Assembly (NCBI RefSeq): GCF_024362525.1
Contig: NZ_CP101458.1
Span: 1,860,001-1,924,000, forward strand
DNA: 64,000 nt
Reading direction: 5' to 3'
Origin: Natrononativus amylolyticus
GTDB lineage: Archaea; Halobacteriota; Halobacteria; Halobacteriales; Natrialbaceae
In this document: positions 14,385-40,513 of the stretch, piece by piece
Layout of the letters: each line of letters begins with the position of its first letter
Position numbering within the stretch: position 1 is the first letter of the stretch
Program-made: the position numbers and the translations under genes
Notes under the pieces: generated by a model
Told to the model about the DNA's origin: nothing
What the model saw: only the letters and a program-made list of their open reading frames with translations
Database searches by the model: none

Positions 14385-14501
14385 GTAGTGGGGTAGGGCA
14401 GATTTGAACCACGATCGTTCCGCTCACTCCGCTCGCTCCACTCCCTGATTCAAATCTGCCCAACGTCACAGTCCTGTCGCTCGCGGGTTTGCTCGCGACA
14501 G
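14385..14501 (-). repeat. tRNA-Val 3'-end copies and hairpin downstream of tRNA-Val
   Basis: Read along the tRNA strand, the gene is followed by a 7-base inverted repeat (CTGTCGC arms at 14474-14480 and 14495-14501), then a T-arm fragment in inverted orientation (14446-14464), then a direct copy of the tRNA 3' end (14385-14410) that matches 14504-14529 at about 23 of 26 positions. The copy lies 119 bases from the original. Tandem-like short words rich in GCTC and GAGC lie between. It looks like a remnant of integration or of a tRNA-derived repeat. Confidence 0.6.
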
Positions 14502-14507
14502 AAGTAG

Positions 14508-14582
14508 TGGGTTGGGGCAGATTTGAACTGCCGGCCTCCTCCATGTCAAGGAGGTGTCATAACCAGACTAGACCACCAACCC
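14508..14582 (-). tRNA. tRNA-Val (GAC)
   Basis: The gene has 75 bases. The acceptor stem GGGTTGG pairs with CCAACCC, the anticodon stem CCTCC pairs with GGAGG, and the seven-base loop TTGACAT gives the anticodon GAC. The T-arm is GGCAG-TTCAAAT-CTGCC. No CCA is encoded, as is usual in archaea. No intron. It lies upstream of the trp promoter on the opposite strand. Confidence 0.95.
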
Positions 14583-25444: not shown

Positions 25445-25598
25445 GCCCGGGTGGCTTAGCTGGACATAGCGCCGCACTCATAGGGTTCAGAGATTCGGTG
25501 CGGTTTCGCCTTGGAAGCCTCCGTGTCCCCTCGAGGACTCTGCCGAGCCTCGGACCTGGGACATGCGGAGATCGAGGGTTCGGAGCCCTCCCCGGGCA
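25445..25598 (+). tRNA. Elongator tRNA-Met (CAT) with intron
   Basis: The mature tRNA has 74 bases, with an 80-base intron at 25483-25562 after position 37. The acceptor stem is GCCCGGG/CCCGGGC, the anticodon stem CCGCA/TGCGG, with anticodon CAT at 25479-25481 and T-arm GAGGG-TTCGGAG-CCCTC. Haloarchaeal elongator tRNA-Met genes are known to hold an intron here, cut by the archaeal splicing endonuclease at a bulge-helix-bulge. The intron boundary is inferred from stem pairing. A TATA-like GCTTAATG lies upstream. Confidence 0.92.
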
Positions 25599-25752
25599 CT
25601 TCCGTTCTACGCGACCTCACGAGCGCAGTGAGTGACGAGTCTGAACGGAAGTGCTCGAATGGGGCGACGAACCCGGTGGTCTTCGTGAGCGAGTGTAACG
25701 AGCGAACGAAGGCTCGAGAGAGCGGAGCTCTCTCGTAGGTTCGGAGCCCTCC
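25597..25752 (+). repeat. Hairpins and T-arm copy downstream of tRNA-Met
   Basis: Right at the tRNA end is a perfect 11-base inverted repeat (25597-25607 with 25643-25653). After more short palindromes (CTTCGT/ACGAAG and GAGAGAGC/GCTCTCTC) a 15-base perfect copy of the tRNA T-arm, GGTTCGGAGCCCTCC, occurs at 25738-25752, 161 bases from the original at 25577-25591. The acceptor part of the copy is degenerate. The rest of the 391-base gap up to 25989 shows no gene; it holds TATA-like and AT-rich DNA before the next start. Confidence 0.6.
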
Positions 25753-39894: not shown

Positions 39895-40068
39895 ATGAAC
39901 GAACCCACCTGCAAACTCGTCTGTACCGGCTGCGGCCTCGAGATGCCGTACCGGGACCGTGCCCTCGCGGAACAAGCGGCGGAGCTCCACCAGCTTCGCG
40001 ACGCGGAGCACGTGACGTTCATCGTGCCGCCGGACTGGTCGCCCGAGGAGCCGGTGACCCACGAATAG
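39895..40068 (+). CDS. Small zinc-binding protein
   Basis: The product has 57 residues. NEPTCKLVCTGCGLEMPYRD has a C-x3-C-x2-C arrangement, and DRALAEQAAELHQLRDAEHVTF looks like a helix with a second His pair, so a C-C-H-H zinc site is possible. Function unknown. It ends 46 bases before tRNA-Leu. The ATG was chosen because the longer frame begins with Arg/Pro-rich out-of-character residues. Confidence 0.65.
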   Translation: MNEPTCKLVCTGCGLEMPYRDRALAEQAAELHQLRDAEHVTFIVPPDWSPEEPVTHE

Positions 40069-40114
40069 TGCGGACCGACAGGTTCTTACTCGATTCGCCG
40101 AAACTCGAGACTGC

Positions 40115-40196
40115 GCGCGGGTAGCCAAGTGGTAACGGCGCAGCGCTTAGGACGCTGTCTCGTAGGAGTCCGCAGGTTCGAATCCTGTCCCGCGCA
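40115..40196 (+). tRNA. tRNA-Leu (TAG)
   Basis: The gene has 82 bases with the long variable arm of class II tRNAs. The acceptor stem GCGCGGG pairs with CCCGCGC, the anticodon stem CAGCG with CGCTG, and the loop CTTAGGA gives TAG. The T-arm is CAGG-TTCGAAT-CCTG. No intron, no encoded CCA. Confidence 0.95.
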
Positions 40197-40296
40197 TTTT
40201 CACGGCGAACACGTCCGTGAGCCGTGAAAATCGTCCAAAGGATTCGAATCAGGGAGCAGCTTCGCTGCGACCGTGGTTCGAATCCTGTCCCGCGCA
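40197..40296 (+). repeat. Hairpin, inverted T-arm and direct 3'-end copy of tRNA-Leu
   Basis: Directly after the tRNA is a perfect 10-base inverted repeat (TTTTCACGGC at 40197-40206 and its partner at 40221-40230). An inverted T-arm fragment AGGATTCGAA lies near 40239-40248. A perfect 22-base direct copy of the tRNA 3' end is at 40275-40296, exactly 100 bases after the original at 40175-40196. From 40297 to 40513 there is no gene, only low-complexity intergenic DNA. Confidence 0.7.
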
Positions 40297-40513
40297 CCCA
40301 GCTTTTGCCGAGGGCTCCGCGCTCGGTGAACGGCTTCGCTCGGGTTCTCCGGGCCGCTCGCTTGCCAATAGTACACCCAATTCCAGTTCGGAGCCCGAAA
40401 CGAATCACAAACGGAATCGCGTCTTCGACTGTGTATCAATCGACTCGGTCCCGAGATCACCTCCCATCGGAGCCGGTCCCGAGGCGATTCGAAACAACCC
40501 CGTTGTGGAGCGA

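Follow-up and report, generated by a model that had tools for sequence, protein, structure and literature searches.

Why is the 3' end of a tRNA gene repeated a short distance behind that gene? The question was raised by a stretch of 64,000 nucleotides from Natrononativus amylolyticus (the window), in which a tRNA-Leu gene is followed by a hairpin, an inverted piece of its T-arm and a direct copy of its own end. An earlier note on this DNA had claimed this order, with a perfect 22-base copy 100 bases downstream. We found every part: GGTTCGAATCCTGTCCCGCGCA (40175-40196) is repeated exactly at 40275-40296, with a start-to-start distance of 100, and a repeat search of the locus recovered both the hairpin (11 perfect base pairs) and the inverted piece of the T-arm (10 perfect base pairs, 16 nt at 88%). 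The locus is made up as follows.

40115-40196, + strand: tRNA-Leu(TAG), host of the unit (ARAGORN; Rfam RF00005, 59.5 bits); its last 22 nt (40175-40196) are block A
40197-40236, + strand: h-module, a hairpin (40197-40230; 10-bp stem, tandem G.A loop) and a spacer
40237-40248, + strand: A' (AAAGGATTCGAA), the T-stem 3' strand and T-loop, inverted (10 bp perfect)
40249-40275, + strand: i-module TCAGGGAGCAGCTTCGCTGCGACCGTG, the inner hairpin
40275-40296, + strand: copy of A, right border of the unit; repeats the tRNA-Leu 3' end directly, 22 of 22 nt identical

Behind the Leu array, a hairpin-rich stretch like CGGTGAACGGCTTCGCTCGGGTTCTC (window 40323-40370) is kept at the same place in locus L095, which belongs to another genus. 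An open reading frame on the minus strand (40019-40408) runs antisense to tRNA-Leu and the copy and gives a 'DRIRTCGLL'-like peptide; such a frame probably gives rise to spurious protein annotations.

The same order was also said to follow tRNA-Val and, in weaker form, tRNA-Met.

14507-14582, - strand: tRNA-Val(GAC), second host (ARAGORN; Rfam)
14461-14507, - strand: h-module of Val
14449-14460, - strand: A' of Val (GGCAGATTTGAA)
14410-14448, - strand: i-module of Val
14389-14409, - strand: copy of A, 2 mismatches to the tRNA end
25445-25599, + strand: tRNA-Met(CAT) with an intron, third host (tRNA search permitting introns)
25600-25650, + strand: h-type hairpin of Met (TTCCGTTC...GAACGGAA)
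25738-25752, + strand: copy of A (GGTTCGGAGCCCTCC, 15 nt), which tracks the unusual T-loop of tRNA-Met

Both arrangements are present, the Val copy with its two mismatches and the Met copy reduced to 15 nt with a hairpin in between. The tRNA-Met gene, absent from the ARAGORN and Rfam lists, surfaced once introns were permitted and is real; other intron-bearing calls in the window (Asp, Trp) were taken for false. The arrangement is thus present at three of three convincing tRNA genes of the window. The same genome also has inner hairpins near-identical to TCAGGGAGCAGCTTCGCTGCGACCGTG downstream of tRNA-Met, tRNA-His and tRNA-Pro genes. Near the start of the window, two look-alike minus-strand stretches of ~70 bases (CTGCCCTTTGGGTTCAAGTC...), at ~1914 and ~2678, suggest a repeated element.

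We analyzed all 44 RF00005 matches of the whole genome as its tRNA set. An exact copy of at least 11 nt of the gene's own end was found downstream of 24 of the 44 genes and upstream of none. Dinucleotide-shuffled downstream DNA gave such a match in 2 of 880 cases (none of 880 at 12 nt or more), and a chance match was ruled out on these controls; copies after other tRNA genes thus occur far above the shuffled rate. The DNA downstream of other tRNAs matched at 11 nt or more in 174 of 1892 comparisons, above the shuffles, because the T-loop is common to tRNAs. The scan was extended to relatives, allowing at most 6 mismatches in 22. Copies recur in all four genomes, at 23/46 tRNA sites in N. amylolyticus, 9/43 in G009, 31/46 in G020 and 5/10 in G027, for which 10 of 55 tRNA loci were taken in. 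Upstream controls gave 0/46, 0/43, 1/46 and 0/10, respectively, and 1/178 in a larger set.

To describe the repeated segment, we parsed units at 249 tRNA sites with a recognisable T-loop. This yielded 230 units at 166 sites, with a median length of 118 bp and ~100-130 bases being typical, although a few parsed units (e.g., L008, L021 and L023 of G000) are probably not genuine. The order is block A (the tRNA 3' end), hairpin h (a stem with a tandem G.A loop), A' (the inverted T-stem and T-loop), hairpin i, and A again. Block A runs from the T-loop to the end of the tRNA (discriminator base) and is 21-22 nt long. The direct repeat at both borders has no mismatch in 21 nt in 114 of the 230 units and one in 44. 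The h-modules are mostly a few tens of nucleotides, and no gene fits inside a unit. Identity of the A copy to its own tRNA is 0.96 in the T-loop, 0.97 in the T-stem and 0.91 in the acceptor. For A' the values are 0.885 (loop), 0.656 (stem) and 0.324 (acceptor), compared with 0.795, 0.471 and 0.274 against another tRNA type as control. A' matches the variable T-loop purine of its own tRNA in 180 of 187 units, the variable base having been excluded from A' placement and low-scoring placements dropped; automatic placement is unreliable in some units (a score of 5-7 of 12 in 27 of 230). Together with the proximity to tRNA genes described below, these units bear out the earlier idea of a recurring tRNA-derived repeat family. 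Beyond what had been noticed from the window, the units are modular, swap parts, form arrays that reach four to six units and carry an A' that tracks the host tRNA.

The type-i core GACCGTGGTTCRAATY was found in 34 of 41 near relatives, with none for the reversed control, and in 47 of 60 haloarchaeal genomes of the same order versus 5 of 235 outside it, those five all belonging to one family. Among 31 members of the family of N. amylolyticus, 19 have the type-ii core and 15 the type-iii core. The tested core motifs lie at most 700 nt downstream of a tRNA gene at 35/37, 25/30 and 28/29 loci, one further type-iii locus being left out of this count; cores are almost only found just 3' of tRNA genes. 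Some cores away from a tRNA belong to arrays displaced by islands (8 kb at L314; 20 kb at L378/L379). Virus-borne units were also sought: a pattern scan of viral contigs returned 23 stretches, 7 in or near tRNA genes and 16 seemingly unrelated. These matches look like chance and were therefore counted as no support. In a BLAST search of plasmids and phages, the window locus had only short matches.

Comparison of genomes revealed precise empty sites. At tRNA-Leu(CAG), the flank TCACTTCT abuts the tRNA in G009, while in G020 and G000 the flank abuts the A copy of a 126-bp unit. The same precise pattern was found at tRNA-Leu(CAA) between G000 and G020, with a 111-nt unit. These are two clean cases and are compatible with gain or loss. 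At Lys(TTT) and His of G009, h-like remnants only were found.

From the observed block, empty sites, tandem arrays, modular exchange and target-matched A', we propose, with about even confidence, that the units are gene-less integrative cassettes of ~100-130 bp lying between tRNA 3'-end copies, moved in trans by an integrase and then recombined. A cassette would enter and leave by recombination within the block from the T-loop to the discriminator base; as recombination would be confined to block A, the tRNA would stay intact and the empty site would be restored exactly. The cassettes may retain the attachment arm (hairpin i plus core A) that belonged to larger elements targeting tRNA genes. 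They would be moved in trans by a tyrosine integrase, either of the SNJ2 type or related to it, presumably through a circular form. Ordinary recombination from one A block to another could then lengthen or shorten tandem arrays and exchange their parts. The hairpins probably work as folded DNA, as binding or pairing sites in a putative folded-strand step, rather than as RNA. The earlier suggestion of an att-like scar of very small elements is thus strengthened by the precise empty sites, the T-loop-to-end duplication, the tandems and the hairpin-plus-core found at some integrase elements, all of which fall short of proof.

We then considered how the arrays arise and change. The named loci came from one protein search, which gave 57 loci, apparently of Natrialbaceae. 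At least two A copies were found at 39 of 178 sites, with four in L173 and L087. Behind a tRNA-Lys, L315 carries four identical 111-bp units in a row followed by diverged ones, and near-identical repeated units were also seen in L140, L173 and L066. No clear newest-first order emerged in the arrays (9 distal, 6 proximal, 1 tie); in a set of 39 arrays, the rank-1 copy matched the tRNA better than the rank-2 copy did in 20, less well in 7 and equally well in 12. Among 87 tRNA-Leu(TAG) sites, 12 had no parsed unit, 49 had one and 26 had more. In two Natronococcus-assembly loci (L119 and L093), tandem tRNA-Leu(TAG) genes with N between them were observed, which may be an assembly artefact from repeats.

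The modules themselves are exchanged. L083 and the Haloterrigena salina locus L142 have flanks that are 97% identical and an identical i, but a different h, and the Natronococcus locus L115 equals L116 plus an inserted i-A-h-A'. Single-unit Leu(TAG) loci whose flanks are at least 80% identical formed 56 pairs, which are mutually non-independent; i alone was shared in 9 of them, h alone in 6, neither in 38 and both in 3. Hence, h and i are exchanged independently of each other while the flanks stay alike, with borders in A and A'. Clustering of the modules at 85% identity, in a set rich in Leu(TAG), gave i-clusters that span 9, 12 and 8 tRNA types (42, 30 and 9 units). The seven h-clusters with the most members are made up of Leu(TAG) units, entirely so in six of them and for 27 of 28 units in the largest. 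Because of this richness in Leu(TAG), the comparison was repeated on three whole genomes. There, with low-scoring A' placements removed, pairs across different tRNAs at least 85% identical made up 3.2% of 819 and 2.7% of 1093 for i, and 0.2% and 0% for h. The likeness of i-modules across tRNA types indicates that i moves or has moved between tRNA genes, with the T-loop as the sole common flank.

Could such changes occur without a dedicated enzyme? Unequal crossing-over or slippage at the 22-bp copies, gene conversion in polyploid cells and template switching at quasi-palindromes might together produce the units, and we regard this as possible, though on the improbable side. The four identical units of L315 and the near-identical repeats in L140, L173 and L066 are in keeping with it. 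The direct repeat alone suffices for precise loss, and the pattern of presence and absence could be mostly loss of ancestral units via the 22-bp repeats. The outward drop in A' identity from the apex (loop, stem, acceptor) is also what apex-primed template switching predicts. However, i is common to many tRNA types, and a short T-loop flank is too little for ordinary homologous recombination. In addition, a matching i-hairpin adjoins the core in elements that encode an integrase. Were repeat dynamics to act alone, the loci would still show with unusual clarity how palindromes beside essential genes are homogenised and change in concert.

SNJ2-type integrases were detected in 114 of 146 Halobacteriales genomes, with three matches in that of N. 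amylolyticus. From the 114 positive genomes, 30 integrase loci were sampled. A type-ii hairpin was present in 4 of the 30, each time directly 5' of a core resembling a tRNA 3' end, and absent from the other 26, as well as from the 64 kb window, a 241 kb viral control and 8 virus-record stretches. Some chromosomal SNJ2-type elements carry a unit-like hairpin and a longer block, while other elements of the 30-locus set have a short SNJ2-like core and no such hairpin. Because A' is only partial in the integrase-bearing elements, their hairpin may come from a host array and have been trapped at the junction. The annotated attP of Halfgib1, Humcor2 and Harhisp1 is 13-15 nt. With a 21-22-nt block and no integrase, the units fall outside the SNJ2-type attP definition of a 13-15-nt core that lies at the 3' end of the tRNA and beside the integrase stop codon.

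The element at L377, 3 kb long, encodes a tyrosine integrase (Pfam Phage_integrase) and has a near-identical unit at each end. L378/L379 (G020:C1:295000-317500) is a provirus-like island of 20 kb at tRNA-Arg(TCT); it has an integrase gene at either end, a transposase-like gene and pleolipovirus-like proteins. An integrase of the island is 41% identical to the SNJ2 integrase, and an ATPase is weakly like pleolipovirus NTPases. At the right end of the island, an i-type hairpin, which misses the type-ii pattern and was judged by eye, is directly followed by the 22-nt block and then by host units. No relative of the L379 integrase turned up when viral contigs were scanned. In Haloferax virus LSV-48N, a palindrome, also judged by eye, lies 5' of a tRNA-Pro-like end. 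L314 (G028:C1:112500-122500) is an 8-kb integrative element with an integrase-like gene, located between tRNA-Gly and a unit array. This element also encodes a 1132-aa protein that is restriction-modification-like by eye.

Folding of the units is strongly biased towards one strand. Tandem GA/GA 2x2 loops number 279 on the tRNA-sense strand and 17 on the antisense strand, GNA triloops make up 116 of 150 sense and 5 of 48 antisense triloops, and the sense-strand fold is more stable in 171 of 225 units. The A'-i-A palindrome shares this sense-strand bias. The window at large is not GNA-rich, with GNA in 3 among the 34 triloops listed (42 in total). Such a fold, conserved and sense-specific, also fits RNA: the units might be transcribed behind the tRNA, their hairpins acting in processing, termination or regulation (e.g., an L7Ae K-loop or tRNase Z ends), and tRNA-derived small RNAs are known in Haloferax (from an excerpt of PMC3544259). 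We nevertheless judge this explanation unlikely. Mismatches of the G.T and A.C kinds are about equal in the stems (9:10 in h and 40:50 in i); therefore, there is no RNA-type wobble bias, and helices biased to G.U were not seen. The acceptor copy kept in A has no conserved partner in A', where identity is close to the control. Moreover, presence varies among related genomes from 9/43 to 31/46 tRNA sites, and an Rfam gathering search of the window matched no family at the units and gave two tRNAs only.

That each copy is the attR of a decayed or lost ordinary provirus or plasmid, given that tRNA 3' ends are usual attB sites in archaea (excerpt of PMC8371274) and that real islands at the same tRNAs do displace arrays (L314, 8 kb; L377, 3 kb; L378/L379, 20 kb), is very improbable and already disfavoured by the ordered, recurring anatomy of the units, their identical tandems, the lack of space for gene remnants, and the block of the L314 element, which at ~44 nt reaches into the anticodon arm, unlike the 21-22-nt block of the units.

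The proposed cassettes resemble several known systems in part. Integron arrays consist of tandem cassettes at one anchor, bordered by palindromic attC hairpins that fold in a strand-specific manner. The units likewise stand in tandem at one anchor, with hairpin borders and a strand-specific fold, but they lack cassette ORFs, and their anchor is a tRNA whose sequence their arms match. MITEs are short, gene-less, hairpin-forming, repeated and non-autonomous. The units share the first four of these properties and were probably moved in trans, but they have no DDE-type terminal inverted repeats, are specific to tRNA ends and carry a 21-22-nt target-specific direct repeat. More speculatively, and with considerable doubt, the system may be integron-like, dispersed and tRNA-anchored: a tyrosine integrase of haloarchaea would recognise the gene-less cassettes as single, folded strands with the sense of the tRNA, and would insert, excise and recombine them at the T-loop. 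In some genomes roughly every second tRNA gene would then head an array, and proviruses would swap cassettes as attachment arms.

SNJ2-type integrases and integrated pleolipoviruses also use a tRNA 3' end as core, with a type-ii hairpin beside it in the four sampled loci described above. The units are nearly confined to Halobacteria, resembling the SNJ2-type integrase family, which is confined to that class according to the excerpted text of PMC8371274. SNJ2-type elements are, however, autonomous and kilobases long, with a 13-15-nt attP in isolated viruses, whereas the units are gene-less with a 21-22-nt block starting from the T-loop. Mycobacteriophage Ms6 has a T-loop-type tRNA attachment site with crossover in the T-loop (excerpt of PMC1762012), but it is a single large prophage, while the units are tandem gene-less cassettes. 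In haloarchaeal prophages, 22-nt and 43-nt duplications of tRNA 3' ends have been described at tRNA-Ala and tRNA-His (PMC3119063); these flank islands of 20-52 kb, compared with ~100-130 bp for the units. The tRNA-like elements of Haloferax volcanii (Holzle et al. 2012, Biochimie; cited in an excerpt of PMC7714728) are likewise tRNA-resembling sequences of a haloarchaeon. The units of the window correspond to the 3' part of a tRNA alone, and neither ARAGORN nor Rfam lists them; the two kinds of sequence may overlap. We found no description of these tRNA-anchored arrays in the open-licence literature searched, and their novelty is provisional.

If the cassette explanation is true, hundreds of haloarchaeal tRNA 3' flanks would preserve a record of integrase traffic, in cassettes small enough to be examined base by base. 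The recurrence of i, with A and A' following the local tRNA, would provide a natural setting in which to study changes of tRNA specificity in integrases. It would also account for puzzling tRNA-end duplications in haloarchaeal genomes. Separately, a stretch of 2.6 kb in one of the relatives (G027:C1:2635124-2637763) holds more than 10 tRNA matches on one strand and is possibly a mobile tRNA cluster.
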